Source of the DNA: Aphanothece saxicola GSE-SYN-MK-01-06B | Lineage (GTDB): Bacteria > Cyanobacteriota > Cyanobacteriia > PCC-6307 > Cyanobiaceae | Length of the DNA stretch: 64,000 nucleotides | Reading direction: 5' to 3' | Assembly (NCBI GenBank): GCA_019359745.1 | Contig: JAHHGT010000001.1 | Coordinates: forward strand, 310,001 to 374,000 | Shown here: positions 6,136 to 54,125 of the stretch, in pieces | Layout of the letters: every line of letters starts with the position of its first letter | Numbering within the stretch: position 1 is the stretch's first letter | Made by a program: the position numbers and the translations under genes | Notes under the pieces: generated by a model | What the model saw: the letters and a program-made list of their open reading frames with translations, nothing else | The model's database searches: none | What the model was told of the DNA's origin: nothing

Positions 6136-6921
6136 TCAGGCCTCGCCGCTGCCCTGCTCGGGCAGGGGCGACGCGGCCGTGCGCAGGGAGAAGCCCCAGG
6201 CGAACAGGGCGGCCACCACCAGCAGCAGGGCCCATTCCGGCACTTCCACCGCCGGAAACAGCAGGCGCAGCAGCAGCCGCAGGCCCACCAGCCCCACCGC
6301 CAGGTAGCCGGCGGTTTCCAGATGGGGGAAGATCTCCAGCCAGCGCAGGAACAGTTCGGCCGTGAGCCGCAGGGCAATGATGCCGATCACCCCTCCGGCC
6401 ATCACCAGGGGCAGCCGGTCGGTGACCGCCACCGCCGCAGAGACGCTGTCGAGGGAGAAGGCCAGATCGGTGAGGGCCAGGGTGGCCACGATCGAGCCCA
6501 GGGAGGCGCCTTTGTGGGGATGGCCGGAGTCGTGGGTGCCTGTGGCCGGCGCGGAGAGGCTCGCCTGCACTCCCTCGGCAACGTCGTTCTTGCCGTCGTC
6601 CTGGCCCAGCAGATGGCGTCCGCAGAGCCAGAGCAGATAGGCCGAGGCCAGCAGTTGCAGCGGCCAGAAATTGAGCACGAAGCTGGCCAGGGCGATCAGG
6701 CCCAGGCGGAAGACCAGGGCGAGCACCAGACCCAGGTTCAGGGCCTGGCGTTGCCGCGCCGGATCATGGAGCCGGCGGGAGATGGCGGCCAGGGCGATGG
6801 CGTTGTCGGCGGAGAGCACGGCCTCGAGCCCCACGAGCAGCGGCAACAGCAGCAGCACCTCGCCCCACTGGTCCGCCTGCTGCAGCAGGGGTGTGAGGCT
6901 CTCCACCGATTCCACTTCCAT
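6136..6921 (-). CDS. TerC family integral membrane protein
   Basis: The product is 261 residues from ATG 6921, with seven to nine hydrophobic segments. The TerC signatures are [16 protein letters not shown] in the first half and [18 protein letters not shown] in the second, whose paired acidic residues lie within membrane helices. TerC-family proteins (E. coli Alx, B. subtilis YceF/YkoY) are implicated in Mn2+ export during metal or pH stress; that role is carried over from other bacteria. A longer in-frame start at 7023 would overlap the divergent gene at 6997, so ATG 6921 is chosen. The 75-base gap to 6997 should hold two divergent promoters. Confidence 0.88.
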
Positions 6922-6996
6922 TCCTGGCGTTCGCTCGGCCCTGGCGCCTTCAAAGAAGCACTCTAGAAAGACTGCCGGCCCCACCCAGCGCCCTCC

Positions 6997-7758
6997 ATGC
7001 AACTTCAGGTCCGACTGCTGCACTGCGACGGCGGGCGCCGCGTCGTGCTGGTCTCGGCCCGCGAGGGGGAGCGGTTTCTGGGCAGTGCCCTTGGGGAGGC
7101 GGGCGATGCCGAGGAGGCCGAGGACCGGGCCAGGGCCCGCCTGCTGGCCAACTTGCAGAGCACGGGCACGGCACGCCTGCCGCGGCAGGCTGCGGCCCCG
7201 GCTCCAGCTTCAGCCCCGAAGCCGCCGACACCGCCGGCAGCCGAGGTTCCAAAGCCAACACCAGCACCACTGCCCACCACGGAACCGCTGCCCGCAGCGG
7301 AAGCGCCCTCCACGTCGGTGAGCCAGGAGGAGGACCCCCAGGATTGGAGCGCCGAACTGACCCACCTGGATCTGCAGATGCGCCGGCTGGGATGGGACAG
7401 GGAGCGGGAAGCCATTTATCTGCAGCGCTCCTTCTCCCACCCCAGCCGCGACCGCATCACCGTCTACGCCGATCTGATCGCCTATCTGCAGGCGATCGAG
7501 GCCCTCGAGCCTGGCTGTGATCCCGCCACGGTTCCCGTTCCTTTACGCCGGGCCGACCTGCTCGACCAATGCAACCTGTTGCTGCAGCAGCTCGGTTGGG
7601 ATGGCGCCATGGGTCGCCGATTTCTCGAGCAGCATCTGGGCGTGAGCAGCCGGCAGCAGCTCAAGGACGCCGACCTGCTGCGCTTCAACATGCTCCTTGA
7701 GGAGGAAACCCTGCTGGGCACTGCCGACGGGCCAGCGGGCCCCGTCACCCCCGGCTGA
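6997..7758 (+). CDS. Conserved hypothetical protein with Pro/Ala-rich linker
   Basis: The product is 253 residues. An N-terminal globular part (residues 1-55, MQLQVRLLHCDGGRRVVLVS) is followed by a Pro/Ala/Thr linker (about 60-110). A helical C-terminal domain (about 115-245) contains LTHLDLQMRRLGWDREREAIYLQRSF and DQCNLLLQQLGWDGAMGRRFLEQ, two similar helix-turn units built around LGWD. There is no signal peptide or membrane segment. I recall similar unannotated proteins in picocyanobacteria but no assigned function. The LGWD-repeat pattern suggests an internal duplication. Confidence 0.75.
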   Translation: MQLQVRLLHCDGGRRVVLVSAREGERFLGSALGEAGDAEEAEDRARARLLANLQSTGTARLPRQAAAPAPASAPKPPTPPAAEVPKPTPAPLPTTEPLPAAEAPSTSVSQEEDPQDWSAELTHLDLQMRRLGWDREREAIYLQRSFSHPSRDRITVYADLIAYLQAIEALEPGCDPATVPVPLRRADLLDQCNLLLQQLGWDGAMGRRFLEQHLGVSSRQQLKDADLLRFNMLLEEETLLGTADGPAGPVTPG

Positions 7759-33599: not shown

Positions 33600-33745
33600 C
33601 GGCTCGGCCTTCCTGTCCGATCTGGCGCTGTTCTACCCAGCCAAGGCCCCCTCAGCCGCCCCAGGCACCGTGGCTGGTGGCAGGGCACCGTTGCAGACCC
33701 TATGGGTGGCGTTATGGTTTCCAGCACGCACCGGCCGTACCCACC

Positions 33746-36103
33746 GTGACCCTGTCCGCCGCCCGTCCAGCCACACCCGCCGAGGCGGCGACGTCATCGG
33801 CAAGCGTCGACACCGTCACACCGGCGGCCGATTTTCCGGTCACCGCCCCGGCGGCCTATCCGGTCTTCTACCGCACCTACAGCCGCAAGACCCCAAGCGG
33901 GGGCAGGGAGAGCTGGCATGAGGTGGCCGAGCGCAACCTCGAGGGCCTGCGGGTCCTGGGTTCCCTTGCGGCAGAGGAGGTGGAGCTGATCCGGCGCATG
34001 CAGCGGCACCAGATGGCGCTCCCCTCCGGCCGCTGGCTGTGGATCGGTGGTACGGGGTGGATCGAGCAACCCGAGAATTTCTCCGGCGCCTACAACTGCA
34101 CCTCCACCAATCTGGTGGACTGGGAAGCCTTCGCCCTGATGATGGATCTGGCGATGATGGGCTGCGGCACCGGCGCCATCATCGAGCCCCATCTGATCCG
34201 TCGGCTGCCGACGGTGCGCAACACCCTCGTCATCGATGGGGTCACCGACATCGGTGTGACGCCGATCGGCTCCCGCCAGCAGCAGACCACCCACCGGATC
34301 GATGGCCAGCAGGTCAATGTGCGGGTTGGCGACACCCGCTCCGGCTGGGTGGAGAGCTACCGGCTGCTGCTCAACCTCTGCAGCGATGAGCGTTTCGACG
34401 GCCCCGTCCACGTCTCGGTGGACCTGTCCGATGTGCGGCCCGTGGGCGAAACCCTCAAGGGCTTCGGCGGCATGGCCAACCCCGTGAAGCTGAGGGACCT
34501 TTACGGCCGTGTTGCCCAGATCCTCAACAAGGCCCAGGGCCGCCAGCTCACCTCGGTGGAGTGCTGTCTGCTGATCGATGAGGCGGCGGTGACGATCGTG
34601 GCCGGCAACATCCGCCGCAGCGCCGGCATGCGCCAGTTCTGCGCCGACGATGACTCCGCCCTCGGCGCCAAGGAGAACCTGTGGCAGCAGGACGCCCAGG
34701 GCAACTGGCGCATTGATCCCGAGCGCGATGCCCTGCGCATGGCCAACCACACCCGGGTGTTTCACGTTCGCCCCAGCCACGAGGTGGTGCTGGAAGCGGT
34801 CAACAAGCAGTTTCAGTCCGGGGAGGGCGCCATCCAGTTCGCCCCTGAAGCGATCGCCCGCTCCAATGCCGACCTGCTCACCACCCCCCAGCTGCGCACC
34901 GAGTTCATCGGCATCTACTGCGACCAGGGCAAGGAAGAGGCCGGCCGTTGGTTGCAGCTGCACCACCCGCAGATCAGCGACGCCGAGCTTGAGCACCGGC
35001 TCGGCCGCTACGGACTCAACCCCTGCGGTGAAATCCTCGGTGCCGATTTCCACTGCAACCTGGCCGAGATCCACCTCAACCGGATCGACCCGGACGACCA
35101 CCAGGCCCAGGCCGACGCCTTCAAGGCCGGTGGCCTGGCGGTGGCCTGTCTGCTGAACCACCGCTTCGAGGTGGAGCGCTATCGCCAGAGCCGGGCCTGG
35201 GATCCGATCGTGGGGGTCAGCTTCACCGGCCTGTTCGATTTCTTCGTGCATGCCTTCGGTACCCCCTGGTTGCAGTGGTGGGAAGCGGGCCGTCCCGACT
35301 CCGAAGCGGGGCGTGCCTTCCGCGAGCAGGAAGCGGCCTACCTCTCGCGCTGGAAGCAGTGCGTCCATGACGCGGTGTGGGACTACTGCGATCGGCACGG
35401 CATGCGCCGACCCAACCGCTGCACCACCGTCCAACCGGCGGGCACCAAGAGCCTGCTCACCGGCGCCAGCCCCGGCTGGCATCCCCCCAAGGCCCAGCGC
35501 TTCATCCGTCGCATCACCTTCCGCAAGAACGATCCGGTGGCGCTGGCCTGCATGGACTACGGCTACGCGATCGTTCCTTCCCAGTCGGACAAGGACGAGC
35601 AGGGACGTCTGCTGAATGACCCGTTTGATCCGCGCTGCACCGAGTGGCTGGTGGAGATCCCCACCGAGGTGAGCTGGGCCAATCTGCCAGGTGCCGATCA
35701 GGTGGAGATCAACAACTTCTCCGCCCTGGCCCAGTTCGACTTCTACATGCAGGTGCAACGCCACTTCACCACCCACAACACATCGGCCACGGTGGAGTTT
35801 CGCGAGCATGAAATCGAGCCTTTGGCCGCCGCGATCCACCAGGCCATTGAGCAGGGTGAGGGATACATCTCCGCCGCACTGCTGGCCCGCTTCGATGCCA
35901 ATGCCACCTTCCCAAGGTTGCCGTTCGAGCCGATCGACCAGGCCACCTATCACCGCATGGTTCTTGAGGTGGAGCAACGCCGCCAGTGCGGGGATTTCTT
36001 CCTGGCCCTGCAGAAGTACGACCGGGGTGAGCTGATTGAGGCCGGTCCCGCCGGCTGCGATTCCGACAAGTGCCTGCTGCCGCTGGCCAAACCCGACAAC
36101 TGA
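33746..36103 (+). CDS. rtpR: Adenosylcobalamin-dependent ribonucleoside-triphosphate reductase (class II)
   Basis: The product is 785 residues from GTG 33746; the frame is open to 33677 but GTG 33746 gives the family length. Class II monomeric RTPR features are present: the catalytic Cys triad context (YNCTSTNL, NPCGEILG), the finger-loop region NKAQGRQLTSVECCL and C-terminal redox Cys in AGCDSDKCLLP. It makes dNTPs from NTPs using B12; picocyanobacteria make pseudocobalamin as cofactor. It likely supplies the cell's only NTP reductase. A terminator-like hairpin follows. Confidence 0.93.
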   Translation: MTLSAARPATPAEAATSSASVDTVTPAADFPVTAPAAYPVFYRTYSRKTPSGGRESWHEVAERNLEGLRVLGSLAAEEVELIRRMQRHQMALPSGRWLWIGGTGWIEQPENFSGAYNCTSTNLVDWEAFALMMDLAMMGCGTGAIIEPHLIRRLPTVRNTLVIDGVTDIGVTPIGSRQQQTTHRIDGQQVNVRVGDTRSGWVESYRLLLNLCSDERFDGPVHVSVDLSDVRPVGETLKGFGGMANPVKLRDLYGRVAQILNKAQGRQLTSVECCLLIDEAAVTIVAGNIRRSAGMRQFCADDDSALGAKENLWQQDAQGNWRIDPERDALRMANHTRVFHVRPSHEVVLEAVNKQFQSGEGAIQFAPEAIARSNADLLTTPQLRTEFIGIYCDQGKEEAGRWLQLHHPQISDAELEHRLGRYGLNPCGEILGADFHCNLAEIHLNRIDPDDHQAQADAFKAGGLAVACLLNHRFEVERYRQSRAWDPIVGVSFTGLFDFFVHAFGTPWLQWWEAGRPDSEAGRAFREQEAAYLSRWKQCVHDAVWDYCDRHGMRRPNRCTTVQPAGTKSLLTGASPGWHPPKAQRFIRRITFRKNDPVALACMDYGYAIVPSQSDKDEQGRLLNDPFDPRCTEWLVEIPTEVSWANLPGADQVEINNFSALAQFDFYMQVQRHFTTHNTSATVEFREHEIEPLAAAIHQAIEQGEGYISAALLARFDANATFPRLPFEPIDQATYHRMVLEVEQRRQCGDFFLALQKYDRGELIEAGPAGCDSDKCLLPLAKPDN

Positions 36104-36173: not shown

Positions 36174-37031
36174 CTATTCGGCGGTGGAAACCAGAGAGCT
36201 GATCTCGCGATGGCTGAGAAGATCGGTGGGATCAATGATCACCAGCCGATCGCGACCGCCGTTCTTGGCCATCAGCAGGGCCTTGTCGGCACGACGGAAG
36301 GTGGCGTCATAGTTCTCATCGGACTTGTGTTCCGTAAGCCCCATGCTGGCCGTGAGATTCAACTCCATGTCATCAATGGAAACCCGCATCTCGCGGATGT
36401 TGGCCAACATGCGCTTGGCAACAAGTTCAGCCGTGGAAAGATCCGCGTCGATCAGAAGGGCCATGAATTCTTCACCTCCCCATCGGGCAATGATGTCGTA
36501 GTGACGCAAGCTGCTGGAGAGGGCCTTGACGAAATCCACAAGCATCAGATCGCCTGTGGCGTGCCCATACTCGTCGTTGATCAACTTGAAATGATCGACA
36601 TCAAGGATGATCATCGAATAGGTGGAGCCGTGGCGTGCGGCGCGTTGGTCTTCCTCCAGACAGCGTTCGGCCATGAAGCGGCGGTTGGAGATTCCCGTCA
36701 GCGAATCATGGGTGGAGGCTTCAAAAAGTGAAAGATTCAGTTCTTTGAGAGAGGCCTGATAAAGATCGGAGATTCGTACCACCCGCTTGATTTGGCGCAA
36801 CTGCTTCTCATAGCGGTTCGTCAGGCTGCGGTTGCTTTCAAGCACATGGGACTGGTAGAGATCGGAGATATCAGCCACCCGCTCCAGCCGGTCGACCTGC
36901 TCTTCAATCCGATGCCATAGGCGAGCCAACAGGTTGCGTACGGGATCATTGTCGTAACTCTGGTCGGCAAGAACGGCCATGACCTCCTGTTCCAATTGGT
37001 CGTCCGACTTGGGGGAGGAAGGGTCGAACAT
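36174..37031 (-). CDS. siaD: SiaD-type diguanylate cyclase
   Basis: The product is 285 residues from ATG 37031, one base after the siaC stop (TGACATG). The N-terminal coiled region (about 15-105) contains two near-identical units (VADISDLYQ at 52-60 and VVRISDLYQ at 84-92). The GGDEF domain starts HDSLTGISNRR (108-118) and has the intact active site GGEEF (185-189) plus a canonical inhibitory site RHYD (176-179) five residues ahead. In Pseudomonas, unphosphorylated SiaC binds the SiaD stalk and activates c-di-GMP synthesis. Order and pairing with siaC make the same switch likely here. Base composition is lower in GC than the flanks. Confidence 0.9.
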   Translation of the reverse strand: MFDPSSPKSDDQLEQEVMAVLADQSYDNDPVRNLLARLWHRIEEQVDRLERVADISDLYQSHVLESNRSLTNRYEKQLRQIKRVVRISDLYQASLKELNLSLFEASTHDSLTGISNRRFMAERCLEEDQRAARHGSTYSMIILDVDHFKLINDEYGHATGDLMLVDFVKALSSSLRHYDIIARWGGEEFMALLIDADLSTAELVAKRMLANIREMRVSIDDMELNLTASMGLTEHKSDENYDATFRRADKALLMAKNGGRDRLVIIDPTDLLSHREISSLVSTAE

Positions 37032-37032
37032 G

Positions 37033-37428
37033 TCAGGCGTTGATCGAAAGAATCAAAAATGGAAACGTATAATCTTCTTTGAATTCAGATCCCAATTCGG
37101 CGGAACGAGGATTTCGGTCATCGTACATCCATTGAACAAGCACTTCCTTGCCACTTTCGAAGGCTGTCTGCAGCAAATCAAAAATATCAATCATGAACCG
37201 AATACTGCTGGTATTGAGATAGTTCAAGTGCAGCTCAAGGGTGAGCGAGTGCTCGGCGCTTGACAGATAAGAGTCAATCCATTGAATCAACTGGTCGTAC
37301 AATTCAAACGAATTCTCTGGATAGGATTCGCCACTCATGACCACGACTCCCGCCTTCCAGTCCGCCCGGATCGAAGGGCTGGACTGCGAGCCAGGCACGG
37401 AGAGATTCAGTTCTTCGGTGCTGCTCAT
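37033..37428 (-). CDS. siaC: SiaC phosphoprotein (DUF1987)
   Basis: The product is 131 residues from ATG 37428, four bases after the siaB stop; an in-frame start at 37485 would overlap siaB. Conserved DUF1987 phrases are SGESYPENSFELYDQLIQW and LHLNYLNTSSIRFMIDIFDLL. Thr73 in NTSS aligns with the Pseudomonas Thr68 that SiaB phosphorylates and SiaA dephosphorylates. It is the partner-switch element that activates SiaD when unphosphorylated. The gene is notably AT-rich for this window (runs such as AATCAAAAATGG near 37046). Confidence 0.92.
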   Translation of the reverse strand: MSSTEELNLSVPGSQSSPSIRADWKAGVVVMSGESYPENSFELYDQLIQWIDSYLSSAEHSLTLELHLNYLNTSSIRFMIDIFDLLQTAFESGKEVLVQWMYDDRNPRSAELGSEFKEDYTFPFLILSINA

Positions 37429-37432
37429 GGGA

Positions 37433-37981
37433 TCAGATGATGGCCCGAAGGCTGAAGAAGGCACGGCCGGGCTCAAGGGGATCAAGGGAGGCCTCCATGG
37501 GTTGGCTCGAGCGCCTGGCGATTTCGATCAGACCCAGACCGGCTCCCTGTCCGGGAGTCTGGGCGTGGGGTTGGCGTAACTGCTGTTTGTAGAGCAGCTT
37601 CAGTTGGGCCTTGTCGCAGTCCGCGAGTTCGTGGATCCGCTGGATCAGGGTCTGTCCGTCCTCCATCTGTACGAGGTTACCTGCACACACGGCGTAATGG
37701 CCAGCCTCGGCAGCCGCGATCACAACCGTCGCGGAGGATTCGGCGTCGCTGAAGCCGCGACTTGTTGCATAATTCCTGATATTCTGGCTCATCTCGATAT
37801 AAACGCTGAACACATCCATCACCTCCAGCTCGGGGGCGTGATTGGATTCTATGTGTTCCTTCAGCGCCGATCCGATTTCCCCGATCAAAGTGGTGGAGAT
37901 CGGACCGTTGAAGCAGATGAGGATCTGCTGATGGCTGAAAAACTCCCGTAGCGAGATCAGACTGGTGGTGCTGATTGTCAT
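37433..37981 (-). CDS. siaB: SiaB kinase (DUF6272)
   Basis: The product is 182 residues. ATG 37981 is preceded by GGAGG with a 7-base spacer, an excellent ribosome binding site, and is preferred over the longer in-frame start at 38029. The protein has an HPK/HATPase-like core with MDVFSVYIEMSQNIRNYATSRGF (N-box-like Glu and Asn) and a late GQGAGLGLIEIARRS (G-rich ATP lid). This is the SiaB family, which phosphorylates SiaC on Thr. It has no membrane segment. It sits between siaA and siaC exactly as in Pseudomonas. Confidence 0.88.
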   Translation of the reverse strand: MTISTTSLISLREFFSHQQILICFNGPISTTLIGEIGSALKEHIESNHAPELEVMDVFSVYIEMSQNIRNYATSRGFSDAESSATVVIAAAEAGHYAVCAGNLVQMEDGQTLIQRIHELADCDKAQLKLLYKQQLRQPHAQTPGQGAGLGLIEIARRSSQPMEASLDPLEPGRAFFSLRAII

Positions 37982-38069
37982 CGCTTTGCCTCCGCTATGG
38001 ACACCGAGGTGGTACCCATCAGTGGCCAAAGGGGTGAGGTGTTGGTCGGAGGGGACATCAGGCAGCTCC

Positions 38070-39353
38070 CTAGGAGAAACGGAAGGAAAGGATGGTGATG
38101 TCGTCCCGCTGGGGATGACGGCCCCGGAACTGCTCGAGGGCCTCGGCGAGAGCCTGGCGCTGGCGATCCAGGGGCTGGCGTGCCAGCTGGATCAGCCATT
38201 CCTTGAATTGCTGGGTGCCGAGTGAAAATCCGTCCTTGCCTCCTGATTGATCCAGAAGCCCGTCGGTGGTGAGGTAGTAGGTGCAGTCCGGAAGCAACGG
38301 AATGTCGTGATCGGTGTAGGCACCGATGCGCTGATCGCAAATGGCTCGATGATCTCCTCTGAGCATGTGCATGGTTTGCCCATCACTCCAATAGAGACTG
38401 ATCTTTGCACCCGAGAATCTAAGTGTTCTGGCTTCAAAGTCAAGGCGAACCAGTCCGATGTCCATGCTGGTCGCGATCGACTTGCTCATCCTTGCTCCGT
38501 GCAGCAGGGTACGCATCGCGGTATCGGTGCAGCTCAGAATCGCGGCGGGGGACGTGATCCCCACTTCCATGATCGAGCGGTCAATCCCCGCTCGGGCCAG
38601 CATTGTCATCATGGCGCCCGAGACGCCATGGCCGGCACAGTCGGCCACACCGGCAAGGCAGTGCCCGCCTTCGGAGTGAAAGATGTAGTAGTCACCCCCA
38701 ACCGTGTCCCGGGGCAGCCAGAGGATGAAATGGTCGTTGCCGAAGGTGTCCTGAAGCTGCCGATCCGGCAAGATCGAGCGCTGCAGCAGACCGGCGTAGT
38801 TGATGGAGGCCTCAATCTGTCGGTTGGCTGCCATCAACTGTTGATTGCTGGTCTCTCCCGCCACCAGGGCATGGCGCATCTTGACGAGCACCATGTTGAA
38901 GGCCTGGGCCAGCCTGGAGATTTCGTCGTTGCTCCGGATCGTCAACAGGCTCGTCATATCATCACTTTCGATCTCACTGGCTTCTCGCACCAGTCGGGCG
39001 ATCGGCAGAATGATGCGCCGGGCGATGATCTGATAGGAAATGATCGCCAGGATGACCAGCAGCAACGTGAGAATCAACGAGACATAGATCTCCGCCGAAC
39101 GGGCGCCCGCAACCATCAGCAACTGGATGGCGGCGATCACCAGATACAGCAGAACAAGCCCATTGACAATGGCAATGAGGGTGAAAACCTGCTGAATGGA
39201 GGCCACCGTTCTTCGGGATGGCAAGGTGTGACGTCGTCGCGAGCTCTCGCGATCGCTGCTGGCATCGGGTTCCCCGTCCTCAGGCCGCAGGACGGGGATC
39301 TTCAACGCCTGAGAGTTCTTTGGGCCCGTGGTGGCCTTCAGGGTGTCGGGCAA
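38070..39353 (-). CDS. siaA: SiaA-type PP2C (SpoIIE) phosphatase with HAMP, short sensor
   Basis: The product is up to 427 residues from TTG 39353; no strong ribosome binding site is seen, so the start is tentative. A polar N-terminus (1-50) leads to two membrane helices (about 56-79 and 90-112) joined by only about ten residues. A HAMP domain (about 113-165), a short coil and a PP2C domain (about 206-427) follow. The metal aspartates are present: GGDYY (221), ADCAGHG (238), TTDGLLD (364) and RDDIT (417/418). It should dephosphorylate SiaC. Pseudomonas SiaA has a large periplasmic domain that is missing here. Confidence 0.87.
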   Translation of the reverse strand: MPDTLKATTGPKNSQALKIPVLRPEDGEPDASSDRESSRRRHTLPSRRTVASIQQVFTLIAIVNGLVLLYLVIAAIQLLMVAGARSAEIYVSLILTLLLVILAIISYQIIARRIILPIARLVREASEIESDDMTSLLTIRSNDEISRLAQAFNMVLVKMRHALVAGETSNQQLMAANRQIEASINYAGLLQRSILPDRQLQDTFGNDHFILWLPRDTVGGDYYIFHSEGGHCLAGVADCAGHGVSGAMMTMLARAGIDRSIMEVGITSPAAILSCTDTAMRTLLHGARMSKSIATSMDIGLVRLDFEARTLRFSGAKISLYWSDGQTMHMLRGDHRAICDQRIGAYTDHDIPLLPDCTYYLTTDGLLDQSGGKDGFSLGTQQFKEWLIQLARQPLDRQRQALAEALEQFRGRHPQRDDITILSFRFS

Positions 39354-39530
39354 TCAGGAGCAGGCTGCTGAGTCCATTCTGCGCAGAAAGTCCCTGGGGC
39401 GCTGTCAACACCGTGGCCCCGCAGGTCGATCCACTCCCTTCTTGTTGCCATGTCCGCGTTGATGGTTTGACTGGCGATGGCCCCCTTGGTCAACAGTCGG
39501 TCACAATGGGACACCGAATTGCACCCTTTC

Positions 39531-40646
39531 ATGCCTGCTCGCCTGCGCATCGCCATCGGCCTGCTGGCGATGTTGCCGGTGGCGGCGGCCGCCGACCGAC
39601 TTCACTGGGGCGATGGGGTCGTCTTCGTGACGTCGATCCTGTCGATCATCCCCCTGGCGATCCTGCTGAGCACCGCCACCGAGGAACTGTCCATCACCCT
39701 CGGTCCTTCCATCGGGGCCTTGCTGAATGCCCTGTTCGGCAACGCCACCGAATTGATCATCGCTCTGGCGGCCCTGCGGGCGGGCCTGGTGGACATCGTC
39801 AAGGCCAGCATCACCGGCACGGTCATGGCCAACCTGCTGCTGGCCCTGGGTCTGTCGATGCTGGTGGGGGGCATCGGCCGCAGCGAGCAGCGCTTCCAGC
39901 CGGTGGTGGCACGGGTCAACGGCTCGGCCATGACCCTGGCGGTCCTGGCAATTCTGATTCCGAGCCTGCGGGGGATGGTGGGTGGCGAGGGCGGGGGTCT
40001 GGATGCGGGCGCCGCCGAGTCGTTCTCCCTGTTCGTGGCCTGGGTGTTGCTGGCCGTCTACGCCCTCACCCTGCTGTTCTCCCTGAAAACCCACCGCACC
40101 CTCTATGCGGTTGCCGAGGCTGATCTGCTGGTGGAAGGGGAGGCTCCTGGTCACGGCGCTGAGGCCGCCCATCGACCGCCCCTGCTTCCCTGGGTGGCTG
40201 TGCTGCTGGCGGCCACCGTGGGCCTGGCCTATTCCTCCGAGCTGTTCGTGGGCGTCGTCGAGACCGTCACCGAGTCACTGGGTCTCTCGGCCCTGTTCAC
40301 CGGCGTGGTGCTGCTCCCGCTGCTGGGCGGTGCCGCGGAATATCTCACCGCCGTGAGCATGGCCCGCAAGGACAAGATGGACCTGGCGGTCTCGGTGGCC
40401 CTGGGCTCCACCCTGCTGGTGGGCCTTCTGGTGGTGCCGGTGCTGCTGCTGGTGGCCCCCCTGCTCGGCCATCCCCTCGACCTCAGTTTCAACGTCTATG
40501 AGGTGGTGGCAGTCGCCACCGCTGTGCTGGTGAGCAATCTGGTCAGTCTCGACGGTCGCTCCGACTGGCTTGAGGGGGTGCTGCTGCTGGCGGCCTACGC
40601 CATCCTCGCCGCCGGGTTCTTCTTCCAGAGCAGCCCCCTGCCATGA
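39531..40646 (+). CDS. Cation/proton antiporter of the CaCA superfamily
   Basis: The product is 371 residues from ATG 39531, with about ten membrane segments. The two alpha-repeats are visible: FGNATELIIALAAL and GGAAEYLTAVSMARKDKMDLAVSVALGST. These Glu-containing helices are the ion-binding site of CAX/ChaA-type Ca2+/H+ exchangers. It overlaps the following gene by four bases (ATGA). A longer in-frame start at 39477 is less convincing. It shares a 177-base divergent region with siaA. Confidence 0.9.
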   Translation: MPARLRIAIGLLAMLPVAAAADRLHWGDGVVFVTSILSIIPLAILLSTATEELSITLGPSIGALLNALFGNATELIIALAALRAGLVDIVKASITGTVMANLLLALGLSMLVGGIGRSEQRFQPVVARVNGSAMTLAVLAILIPSLRGMVGGEGGGLDAGAAESFSLFVAWVLLAVYALTLLFSLKTHRTLYAVAEADLLVEGEAPGHGAEAAHRPPLLPWVAVLLAATVGLAYSSELFVGVVETVTESLGLSALFTGVVLLPLLGGAAEYLTAVSMARKDKMDLAVSVALGSTLLVGLLVVPVLLLVAPLLGHPLDLSFNVYEVVAVATAVLVSNLVSLDGRSDWLEGVLLLAAYAILAAGFFFQSSPLP

Positions 40647-50585: not shown

Positions 50586-53500
50586 TCACAGGGCCACGAC
50601 CCGGTGCCGGCCGGCGGCCTTGGCCGCATACATGTTCCGATCGGCGCGCTTGAGGAAGAGGTCCGCATCTTCCCCGGCTCCGTGCAGGGCGATGCCGATG
50701 GAGAACGACGGAACGATGGTGTCGTCGTTCCAGGCGATGGGTTCGCCGATGCTGCGCTGCAGCGCTTCAGCGATGGCAATCCCTTCATCCAGGCCCTGGA
50801 CACCTTCGAGTAAAACGAGAAATTCGTCTCCACCCAGCCGTCCGGCATGGTCGCCGAGACGGATCCGGGTGGTGATTCTCCCGGCCACCGTCCTGAGCAC
50901 GGCATCGCCGCAGGCATGGCCATAGCGGTCGTTGATGCCCTTGAAACCATCGCAGTCACAGAACAACAACGCCAGCGGCTGGGCGCTGTAGGCCCGTTGG
51001 TCCTGAAGGAGCTGCTCCAATCGACTGAGAATGGCCGCGCGGCTGAACAGACCCGTGAGCGGATCGGTGTTGGCGCGTTGCAGCAGCAGCCGCTCCTCCA
51101 TCACCTGCTGATCCACGGGTTGCAGGGTGATCACGTAGCCATGGGACAGCCGCAGGGTGCCCCCCACCGGACCCACCTCAGCACCGGTGTCGAGTCCTTT
51201 GGTATCGAGGCTGATCAGCCCTTCGCTACTGAGGGTCCGGACGTTGAGTTGCACCCAGCTCCAGCCCCCCGCCGGATCGGCCAGTCGTAGGCGTCCCTGG
51301 CGGATCGGACCTGATTCCGCCAGCCATTGGCAGAGATCCACAGACTCGGGAGGATCATCGGCCGAGGCCAACAACTCCGGAAACCGGCGTCCGAGCCATT
51401 GCGTCTGCTGCCAGCCCGTCATCGGCTGCAGCGACGGCGATACCCAGACGACCGATTGCTGCTGATCCAGCAGCAGCATCACATCCACGATGTTGTCGGC
51501 CAACAGCCGGTAGAGGGCGGCCGCGTCGCCCAGGCTTCGTGCCGCCTGGTTCTGCTCGGTGACGTCCCGCCATTTCACGGCAACAAGGCCGCGATCGGGA
51601 GTGATTTCGATATCAAGAAAATGGCCCTCCAGGGAAGGGTCGATCTGGTTGCAATCAAAGCCGCTGACGACCGTTGGCGCGTTCCGCATGGCGGCTTCCA
51701 CATAGAGGTCCATCAGGCCGTTGTGGCTCACCTGGGGAGCAACGGCCAGCAGCATCTGGCCAATCAGGAGGTCGTCATCCTGCGCCAGGTAGGAGCAGGC
51801 CGCTTTGTTGGCATCCAGAATCTGAAAGTCCTCAATGCTGCCGTCATGCCGATAGATTGTCTGCAGCAGAAGAAAGCACTCGCTGCTTGAGTCAACAGCC
51901 GATCGCAACAGCTCGAGTTGTTCAAAGGTGCTTGGCACACGCGTTTTCCCTCCAGTCACACCGTGATGAAGATCGGTTCTGATGGGAACGGCGGGTGGCG
52001 GAGCTTGGCCCTGGATCGCCGCCGGCTGCGGATCCCGGATCAGGGCCTCAAAAGCTTGCAGTTCCATGGGACGGCCGCAGAGAAAACCCTGGAAGCAATC
52101 GCAACCCAAATCCTGCAGCATGGAACGCTGCGCCTCCGTTTCCACCCCCTCGGCCGTGCATTCCATCCCCAGGCCATGGGCCAGGGTGATGGTCGTGGCC
52201 ACAATCGTCTGATCCAACGACGATTCCGTCATGTTCCGCACGAAGGTGCGATCAATCTTCAACCGGTGCACCGGCAGGGCCCTCAGCAGGTCCAGCGAGG
52301 AATAGCCGGTGCCGAAATTGTCAATCACGATCCGGAACCCCTGTTCGGCCAGCACCCGTAACTGTTCACGGGCCAGGAGGGGATTGCGGATCAGGGCCGT
52401 TTCCGTGATTTCCAGCTCCAGCTGCTCCGGACGCAGCGCGTGCTCATGGAGGGCCTCAATCAAGGTGTTGACATAGCGCCGTCCTGGCAGTTCCAGCTCC
52501 CGAGGCGAGACATTCAGGGCCAGTCGGGGGGGCTGCAGGCCAGCCTGCTGCCAGACCTGGAGCTGTTGCAGGGTCTGGCGCAGGACCCATGGCGATAACT
52601 GCAGGATCAGACCACTCTCTTCAGCGAGTGGCAGGAAATGGCTCGGTGGAATGGTGATCCTCTGGCCGTTGGTCCAGCGCAGCAGGATCTCTCCTCCGGC
52701 AACCACATTGCCTGGATTCAGCTGCGGTTGGACCAGAAGTCCGAACTCCTGCCGTTCGATGGCCTGGGACAGTTGACAGCCCAGTTCCATTCGTTCCTGA
52801 ATTCTGCGGCTGATCGTGCTGGAGTAAGCACACAACTGGCTGCGCCCCTGGGCCTTCGCCTTCATCAGAGCCGTGTTGGCGCACTGGATCAACGGCTGGC
52901 TGTCCTGGGCATGTTCGGGATAGGTGGCGATGCCCACGGCAAAGGTGGGGTGGAGGGGCAGATCCTTGAGCAACTGCTGTTGCTGGCCCCAGTCCTGCTG
53001 CAGCCGCCGCGTGGCTGCTATCGCATCGCCGATCGAGCGAATCCCATCCTCCAGGATGATCAGAAACTGATCGCTGCTCAACCGCGCCAGCCAGTCGTTT
53101 GGCCCGGTGAGCTCGCGCAGGCGGCTGGCCATGGTCCGGAGCACCCGGTCGCCCACCTCGGAGCCGTAGGTGTCGTTGATCTCCTCAAAGCCATCCACGT
53201 CCAGGCTCAGGACAGCCAGTGAAGCGTTGTAGCTGCGTCCATTCAGACGTCGCTTCAACTCCTCCAGGGTGGCGAGCTTGTTGGGCAGCCCTGTGAGTGG
53301 GTCGTGCAACCGGTCGGCCGCCAGCTCCTGAACCAGGGACCGTGCCTCGGTGACATCTTTGAGAGTTCCCACCATGCGCAGGGGCGCCCCGTCCTGGTCG
53401 TAGCTGATGTGTCCCACGACGTCCACCATCAACTCGAAGCCGTCCGCGAGACTCAGCCGATGGCAGCTTCGGAAAATGTCTCCCCGGGTCACGGCCCGGC

Positions 53501-54125
53501 GAACATCCATGTGCCAGCGCAGGCGGTCGTCGGGATGCACCAGGGCGACATAGGCCCTGAGTGAGCTGTGCTCGTCGTTCGTCTGGCTTCTGCAGAGGCG
53601 CCGCATCTGTTGCGACCACCGCATACGGCCATCGGCAAAGCGCAGATCCCAGACGCCGATGCCGCTGATGGCTGAGCCGTCGTCCAGCAGGCTGAGGGTG
53701 TCTTCCAGCTCGTGTTCCCGATGGCGCTGCTGGGTTTGATCGTGCACACAGCTCACGATCAGCGTCAGACCGCCAACCTCAAGGACGCTGTTGCTGACGA
53801 TGACGTCACGGATGGAGTCATCGCGGCAGCGGTGGCGCGTCTGGAAGCGGCTGCCACCGCTGGCCATCATCTCGCGGCGACGCTCCGCGACCCAGTCGGC
53901 GTCGTGATCGGGATCGGCCTGGATCGCCTCGGGGGATAGGGCAAGTAACTCGTCTGTGCTGTATCCGAGGTGTTCATGGGCCAGATGGTTGCAGGCGAGG
54001 AATCCGCCGCCTACCGCATCCGACACCAGCAGGTCGGTGCCGGTGAGGTCCGCGATCAGGCAGTAGTCGGCAAGGCGGCGTCGCACGGGCTCGGAGAGGC
54101 TGGCGGACAGTCCGATTTCTCCCAT
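50586..54125 (-). CDS. PAS-PAS-GGDEF-EAL-PAS-PAS-GGDEF signalling protein
   Basis: The product is 1179 residues. Two PAS-like domains (about 15-135 and 145-265) lead to a degenerate GGDEF (274-435, SSDQF at 350-354 in place of GGDEF). An EAL domain (about 445-695) has EILLR at 479, LEITET with Glu572, Lys623 and EGVE at 659, but DNFGTG (602-607) replaces the usual DDFGTG. Two more PAS-like regions (about 735-860 and 870-1005) and an intact C-terminal GGDEF (GGDEF 1098-1102, I-site RLGD 1089-1092) follow. No membrane helix is seen. It should be able to make c-di-GMP; whether the EAL still degrades it is uncertain because of the Asp-to-Asn change. Confidence 0.92.
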   Translation of the reverse strand: MGEIGLSASLSEPVRRRLADYCLIADLTGTDLLVSDAVGGGFLACNHLAHEHLGYSTDELLALSPEAIQADPDHDADWVAERRREMMASGGSRFQTRHRCRDDSIRDVIVSNSVLEVGGLTLIVSCVHDQTQQRHREHELEDTLSLLDDGSAISGIGVWDLRFADGRMRWSQQMRRLCRSQTNDEHSSLRAYVALVHPDDRLRWHMDVRRAVTRGDIFRSCHRLSLADGFELMVDVVGHISYDQDGAPLRMVGTLKDVTEARSLVQELAADRLHDPLTGLPNKLATLEELKRRLNGRSYNASLAVLSLDVDGFEEINDTYGSEVGDRVLRTMASRLRELTGPNDWLARLSSDQFLIILEDGIRSIGDAIAATRRLQQDWGQQQQLLKDLPLHPTFAVGIATYPEHAQDSQPLIQCANTALMKAKAQGRSQLCAYSSTISRRIQERMELGCQLSQAIERQEFGLLVQPQLNPGNVVAGGEILLRWTNGQRITIPPSHFLPLAEESGLILQLSPWVLRQTLQQLQVWQQAGLQPPRLALNVSPRELELPGRRYVNTLIEALHEHALRPEQLELEITETALIRNPLLAREQLRVLAEQGFRIVIDNFGTGYSSLDLLRALPVHRLKIDRTFVRNMTESSLDQTIVATTITLAHGLGMECTAEGVETEAQRSMLQDLGCDCFQGFLCGRPMELQAFEALIRDPQPAAIQGQAPPPAVPIRTDLHHGVTGGKTRVPSTFEQLELLRSAVDSSSECFLLLQTIYRHDGSIEDFQILDANKAACSYLAQDDDLLIGQMLLAVAPQVSHNGLMDLYVEAAMRNAPTVVSGFDCNQIDPSLEGHFLDIEITPDRGLVAVKWRDVTEQNQAARSLGDAAALYRLLADNIVDVMLLLDQQQSVVWVSPSLQPMTGWQQTQWLGRRFPELLASADDPPESVDLCQWLAESGPIRQGRLRLADPAGGWSWVQLNVRTLSSEGLISLDTKGLDTGAEVGPVGGTLRLSHGYVITLQPVDQQVMEERLLLQRANTDPLTGLFSRAAILSRLEQLLQDQRAYSAQPLALLFCDCDGFKGINDRYGHACGDAVLRTVAGRITTRIRLGDHAGRLGGDEFLVLLEGVQGLDEGIAIAEALQRSIGEPIAWNDDTIVPSFSIGIALHGAGEDADLFLKRADRNMYAAKAAGRHRVVAL

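Follow-up and report, generated by a model that had tools for sequence, protein, structure and literature searches.

A predicted SiaABCD partner switch with a sensor-less SiaA in a family of picocyanobacteria

We analyzed a 64,000-nucleotide stretch of DNA (the window) from the picocyanobacterium Aphanothece saxicola GSE-SYN-MK-01-06B (contig JAHHGT010000001.1, positions 310,001 to 374,000), whose genome (G000) comprises 3.25 Mb in 11 contigs, and found in it a putative operon coding for homologues of the four proteins of the SiaABCD system. In Pseudomonas aeruginosa, as described in passages of PMC12834913, PMC8457831 and PMC7647112, SiaB phosphorylates SiaC, SiaA dephosphorylates SiaC, and unphosphorylated SiaC activates SiaD, the diguanylate cyclase that makes cyclic di-GMP (c-di-GMP). 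We think it probable that the cyanobacterial genes likewise encode a working partner switch, that this switch takes its input through a membrane hairpin in SiaA, and that it has been passed down within the picocyanobacterial family. The genes and the sites within them on which this reading depends are as follows (aa, amino acids; ORF, open reading frame).

38070-39353, minus strand: siaA, 427 aa from a TTG start; membrane hairpin, HAMP domain and PP2C phosphatase (ORF list and profiles)
39117-39206, minus strand: siaA codons 50-79, helix 1 of the membrane hairpin, bearing [ST]IQxxFx6Nx3LxxL (motif of the aligned cyanobacterial SiaA)
37433-37981, minus strand: siaB, 182 aa from an inner ATG (the longest ORF extends to 38029); SiaC kinase by homology, DUF6272
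37033-37428, minus strand: siaC, 131 aa from an inner ATG (the longest ORF extends to 37485); DUF1987 phosphoprotein with Thr73 in YLNTSS
36174-37031, minus strand: siaD, 285 aa; predicted diguanylate cyclase with GGEEF at residue 185 and the I-site RHYD
36756-36869, minus strand: siaD codons 55-92, putative twin SiaC-docking motifs ISDLYQ at Ser56 and Ser88 (motif scan and passages of PMC8457831)

An initial annotation of this DNA, made from its letters and ORFs, had read the four leftward genes as siaA-D homologues in the order of Pseudomonas siaABCD, with spacing from 1 to 88 bases. The ORF positions give gaps of 88 (siaA-siaB), 4 (siaB-siaC) and 1 (siaC-siaD) bases, the inner ATG codons of siaB and siaC being taken as starts because proteins of ~182 aa and of 131-134 aa are common among their relatives. 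The identities agree between profiles and solved structures. SiaA matched the Pfam HAMP and SpoIIE/PP2C families, SiaB matched PF19788 (DUF6272; E 4.4e-38), SiaC matched PF09345 (E 1.8e-36) and SiaD matched the GGDEF profile (E 6.9e-41), and the best solved relative was in each case a P. aeruginosa protein: SiaA-PP2C 6k4e (E 1e-88), SiaB 6kko (E 2.4e-59), SiaC 6k4f/6kko (E 7.9e-40) and SiaD 7e6g (E 7.3e-70). Three of the proteins also passed the cut-offs of the NCBIfam equivalog models, SiaB with 251.4 bits (NF038264, cut-off 225), SiaC with 187 bits (NF038265, cut-off 150) and SiaD with 302.7 bits (NF038266, cut-off 290). The DUF6272 and DUF1987 identities on which the annotation leaned were thus upheld by PF19788, PF09345, NF038264 and NF038265. 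SiaA scored 411 bits against NF038263, short of the cut-off of 700, and covered only positions 286-657 of the model; two divergent relatives likewise fell below the cut-off, with 417.7 and 422.3 bits. On this sequence evidence the window carries a SiaABCD module, with homologues of all four proteins in the Pseudomonas order.

The order A-B-C-D recurred in all 31 of the other cyanobacterial loci that we fetched, which argues that the cluster is not a product of chance. Not every frame is open in these loci: the SiaA and SiaC frames of L073 are broken, SiaC is shifted in L077, and L070 is cut by the end of its contig. We counted motifs over 32 cyanobacterial versions of each protein, those of the window and of the 31 other loci. 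Thr73 of the window SiaC, within YLNTSS, aligns with the P. aeruginosa phosphosite Thr68; YLNTSS is invariant in a 12-row SiaC alignment and was found by pattern in 31 of the 32 proteins, the exception being the decayed L073. All 32 SiaD proteins have both GGEEF and an RxxD I-site. The window SiaA has the PP2C motifs GGDYY, DCAGHG, TDG and QRDD (by pattern and by alignment to 6k4e), and these occur in 29, 30, 31 and 32 of the 32 proteins, respectively, the misses falling in the cut L070, in the broken L073 and, for GGDYY, also in L074. In the window, then, the GGDEF site, the I-site, Thr73 and the PP2C motifs are as intact as the initial annotation had held them to be, by motif patterns and alignments alike. 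For SiaB, a catalytic Glu61 is predicted in a passage of PMC7647112; alignment to the solved SiaB places Glu63 of the window protein, in YIEMxQN, at this position, and a strict pattern around it fits 27 of the 32 proteins. The surfaces through which SiaC and SiaD would meet also appear to be kept. In the P. aeruginosa crystal structure described in part of PMC8457831, the stalk of SiaD offers SiaC two docking motifs, around S50/Q54 and S82/Q86, and the window SiaD has ISDLYQ twice, at Ser56 and Ser88, with the same spacing of 32. The strict twin motif at this spacing occurs in 26 of the 32 cyanobacterial SiaD proteins; several SiaD proteins from outside the cyanobacteria have one copy or none by a looser pattern.

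Where the cyanobacterial module differs from its Pseudomonas counterpart is at the input end. The N-terminal region of SiaA could be read in 30 of the 32 proteins (all except the cut L070 and the interrupted L073), which are 385-465 aa long, and all 30 have a pair of adjacent membrane helices ahead of the HAMP and PP2C domains. Among 56 non-cyanobacterial SiaA proteins, drawn from the best 80 of 387 loci matching one SiaC query, 55 are at least 661 aa long, the exception being L157 with 382 aa. In most of the long proteins ~270 residues separate the helices, with hydrophobic stretches near residues 1-50 and 304-360; for one of them (L104) the scan detected the second stretch only. Profile searches and the length and helix scan found no sensing domain in the window SiaA. 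In an AlphaFold model of this protein (mean predicted local distance difference test score [pLDDT], 77; predicted template modeling score [pTM], 0.59; residues 1-49 below a pLDDT of 50), helices 53-80 and 86-129 are joined by a five-residue turn (81-85), and the best PDB match is again 6k4e, to the PP2C part. Cyanobacterial SiaA, as predicted from its sequences, is thus a consistent sensor-less variant with no external sensing domain, a feature of the window protein and of 29 others that the initial annotation overlooked in calling the system complete and in the same order as that of Pseudomonas.

The hairpin has a character of its own. Ten residues (I53, Q54, F57, N64, L68, L71, L99, S106, R113 and P117) are identical in all 30 aligned proteins, and the turn is variable. 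The motif [ST]IQxxFx6Nx3LxxL, which is proper to cyanobacterial SiaA, has IQ just before the first helix and an Asn inside it. A profile built from 12 hairpins gave strong matches (~1e-29) in 3 of 292 cyanobacterial genomes, in SiaA genes only; three further genomes gave four weak hits to part of it, with E values between 3e-5 and 9e-4. We rejected the idea that the hairpin was borrowed from another cyanobacterial sensor, given that strong matches in these 292 genomes were confined to SiaA.

From the observed homology, gene order, motifs and docking sites, we infer by analogy with P. aeruginosa what the four proteins do and in which direction the switch runs; since the interfaces are kept, the same core mechanism is likely. 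SiaB would phosphorylate SiaC at Thr73, and the PP2C domain of SiaA would strip the phosphate from it. Unphosphorylated SiaC would then dock on both stalk motifs of SiaD and keep the SiaD dimer active, so that c-di-GMP would rise. At the input, the tight helical hairpin, with its conserved polar residues Asn64 and Ser106, would feed the HAMP domain. A SiaA that lacks an outside domain would most likely respond not to an external ligand but to a membrane partner or to the bilayer's physical condition, as altered by cold, stress or a change of lipids. The output would probably be aggregation or polysaccharide formation through PilZ proteins, for example a PilZ-bearing cellulose-synthase-like protein. 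The genome has 21 GGDEF, 11 EAL and 7 PilZ matches, so that c-di-GMP has uses there, and the possibility that SiaD is its sole cyclase was rejected on the same count. The words biofilm switch in the initial annotation are not supported as written, being carried over from Pseudomonas, where the four genes serve to switch on c-di-GMP as a biofilm messenger.

Several points weigh against this reading. As one of 21 GGDEF matches, SiaD may contribute only a small share of the c-di-GMP; SiaC is absent from 23 of the 42 genomes in the genus, so that the switch is dispensable; and the hairpin may do no more than anchor the protein in the membrane. Six of the 32 SiaD proteins (L065, L069, L072, L074, L075 and L077) do not have the strict twin motif, and the strict SiaB pattern is missed in five of 32 proteins (L067, L070 and L074, together with L065 and L077, where Val replaces Ile). 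In P. aeruginosa, moreover, the passages of PMC12834913 that concern SiaA do not narrow the responsible part of residues 1-336 to the membrane helices.

In P. aeruginosa, SiaA has been argued to sense membrane perturbation after cold or detergent, with a chimera in which residues 1-336 were swapped (PMC12834913, in part). Our own tentative proposal, to which we would give somewhat less than an even chance, is that SiaABCD in the picocyanobacteria has turned into, or has remained, a gauge of temperature or stress within the membrane, in which the hairpin reads the bilayer and thereby sets c-di-GMP. Another possibility, which we consider rather doubtful, is that the hairpin merely anchors SiaA as a constitutive membrane phosphatase and that the switch is set by SiaB (through ATP or metabolites) or by the amounts of the proteins. 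That no sensing domain was found and that the PP2C motifs of the window protein are intact would both fit such an anchor. It sits less easily with the positions in and around helix 1 that are fixed in 30 of 30 proteins, the Asn within the helix and the IQ before it included, while the turn varies, and with the retention of the HAMP domain. HAMP domains normally relay signals.

Accessory proteins supply the sensing part for some intramembrane-sensing histidine kinases, and an unlinked membrane or periplasmic partner could do the same for SiaA. Such a partner would give the conserved helix positions a role in a SiaA without a sensor of its own. We nevertheless regard it as unlikely: no candidate gene was seen with the operon in the window, in which siaA comes first, and the matched neighbours, to which the search extended, are a ribonucleotide reductase, a methyltransferase-like gene and, for most loci of the genus, an exchanger.

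SiaC was surveyed in three samples that differ from one another, those of the phylum and the genus with NF038265 and that of the family with PF09345. It was found in 19 of 42 genomes of the window's genus, in 27 of 251 sampled genomes of the family (6 of 59 genera) and in 5 of 386 genomes sampled across the phylum; these five, G000 included, all belong to the genus of the window. The cluster is thus not common in cyanobacteria. Most of the closest loci, among the best 80 of 387, belong to records with Cyanobium or Synechococcus in the title. The placement of the system in a picocyanobacterium therefore stands, but not as a lone case, since the cluster recurs in six genera of the family. DUF6272 alone is more widespread (39 of 386 genomes and 26 of 142 genera), but its scores beyond the genus do not exceed 54 bits, versus ~130 for SiaB; these weak matches come from 25 further genera (34 genomes) and are possibly slr1658-type relatives of SiaB. 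SiaC-positive genomes of the genus had more GGDEF matches than SiaC-negative ones (median of 17 in 19 genomes versus 5 in 23, P = 1e-5; at completeness of at least 95%, 17.5 in 16 versus 7 in 13, P = 0.002), an association that is a hint only, because the genomes are related.

The surroundings of the cluster bear on its age. The features next to it in the window are as follows.

39354-39476, no strand assigned: 123-bp intergenic region between siaA and the exchanger gene, which are divergent; putative site of the operon promoter (ORF positions)
33677-36103, plus strand: B12-dependent-type ribonucleotide reductase gene (nrdJ), convergent with siaD (Pfam PF21995; neighbour in other sia loci)
39477-40646, plus strand: sodium/calcium exchanger gene, divergent from siaA, a conserved neighbour within the genus (PF01699)

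nrdJ accompanies the sia cluster in 27 of the 31 other cyanobacterial loci, often together with genes that we take from their sequences to be methyltransferase-like and prfC-like, and exchanger and pentapeptide genes lie beside it in 15 of the 18 other loci of the genus. L064 and L076 have none of these neighbours, L074 has the prfC-like gene only, and L070 offers a short stretch. In a tree of 82 concatenated rows and 884 columns, 29 cyanobacterial rows fell on one side of a branch of length 0.51 with a Shimodaira-Hasegawa-like approximate likelihood-ratio test (SH-aLRT) value of 100; the other 53 rows, on the opposite side, are from Pseudomonadota except for one metagenome bin titled Actinomycetota. 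The tree was built by a quick method with SH-aLRT and no bootstrap, is unrooted (midpoint for drawing) and includes SiaA from residue 105 on, hence without the first helix. It omits the cut, broken or shifted loci L070, L073 and L077; L114, L136, L145, L148 and L157; L117 and L125, which are second copies of L073 and L070; and L078-L097, which are copies of cyanobacterial loci. The siaABCD cluster of the Actinomycetota-titled bin (L155) groups with Rhodoferax and is likely a binning error.

Genomes of the genus without SiaC were also read at this site. nrdJ was present in all 13 searched of the 23 SiaC-negative genomes, and nine were read around it. Two of these (G411 and G415) have nrdJ directly adjoining the exchanger gene and so represent empty sites. 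In a third, G386, a frame-broken piece of siaD lies beside nrdJ (L185, C37:12000-26000), in a stretch where siaA, siaB, siaC, exchanger and pentapeptide genes found no match; by its sequence this remnant is that of a lost operon. The other six had nrdJ but no sia matches in the stretches read, some of which are short. The simplest reading of this distribution would be a cluster that is patchy but old, with one early arrival and repeated loss.

The same data speak to two further alternatives. Loss is visible in the piece of siaD in G386, in L073 (from G566, with SiaA interrupted, a stop within SiaC and NASS instead of NTSS) and in the SiaC of L077, and one might suppose that in this lineage the operon is in decay and no longer functions. 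This we judge very improbable, given the four open frames and active-site motifs of the window and the maintenance of the motifs across the cyanobacterial tree rows at 44 to 98% identity to the window, depending on the protein. The two frame-shifted pieces of SiaC in L077 (G439, 6667-7067) may reflect either decay or a sequencing error. Contamination or a recent proteobacterial transfer, to which one might look because the non-cyanobacterial relatives among the best 80 of 387 loci are nearly all Pseudomonadota, was rejected as scarcely credible in view of the single cyanobacterial clade with its long stem and the neighbourhood common to genomes of several genera, single-contig ones included.

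Set beside known systems, the module is close in kind to P. aeruginosa SiaABCD, with which it shares the gene order, the four homologues, the phosphosite, the PP2C and GGEEF motifs and the spacing of the docking motifs, and from which it differs in its host, in the lack of the long region between the SiaA helices (model positions 1-285 are unmatched) and in the motif of the hairpin. The siaABCD clusters of Halomonadaceae, Stutzerimonas, Rubrivivax, Telmatospirillum and others have the same homologues, in nearly all cases in the same order, but SiaA is of the long form (at least 661 aa) in 55 of 56 of the non-cyanobacterial proteins, and these clusters lie across the tree. Proteins of the slr1658/slr1659 type, known in cyanobacteria through NCBIfam models, may be distant kin of SiaB and SiaC, although the window proteins reach only 17.2 and 18.5 bits against these models, whose cut-offs are 100. 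In intramembrane-sensing histidine kinases and DesK-type thermosensors, the sensing unit is built from membrane helices, and its outside domain is minimal or missing. The likeness to these is an analogy only; the output here would be a PP2C phosphatase within a partner switch. DesK is also discussed in a passage of PMC12834913.

As far as the open-access literature searched goes, the cyanobacteria are a new host group for SiaABCD. Judged by titles and the beginnings of abstracts, none of the open-access papers listed by the searches describes the module in cyanobacteria. The main texts of PMC12834913, PMC8457831 and PMC7647112 nowhere use the stem cyanobacteri-, and Sia is absent from a cyanobacterial review. 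Two open-access papers that name both SiaABCD and cyanobacteria deal with heme-degrading enzymes and with a phage protein in P. aeruginosa. The NCBI models would assign the names SiaB, SiaC and SiaD to proteins of such genomes, and automatic annotation of these three therefore probably exists already. The SiaA exchange in P. aeruginosa described in the relevant part of PMC12834913 involved the whole N-terminal 336 residues; a cyanobacterial SiaA, naturally without the periplasmic part, could test directly whether the membrane helices suffice. If the hairpin does act as an intramembrane gauge, this protein would be a natural minimal SiaA in which sensing of the membrane is uncoupled from sensing of a ligand.

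An alignment of 14 loci revealed short conserved blocks upstream of siaA but no clear promoter, and a search for structured RNA families in the window at the gathering threshold returned none besides a tRNA-Ser. On contig C1 of G000, a PilZ-bearing cellulose-synthase-like glycosyltransferase gene (L201, 1878-4064), which overlaps the end of a HlyD-type gene, encodes a candidate target of c-di-GMP. Within the window itself, ~11 kb from siaA, an ORF on the minus strand (50586-54125) codes for a 1179-aa protein with GGDEF and EAL matches at 50601-51074 and 52068-52775, which would be another c-di-GMP enzyme.

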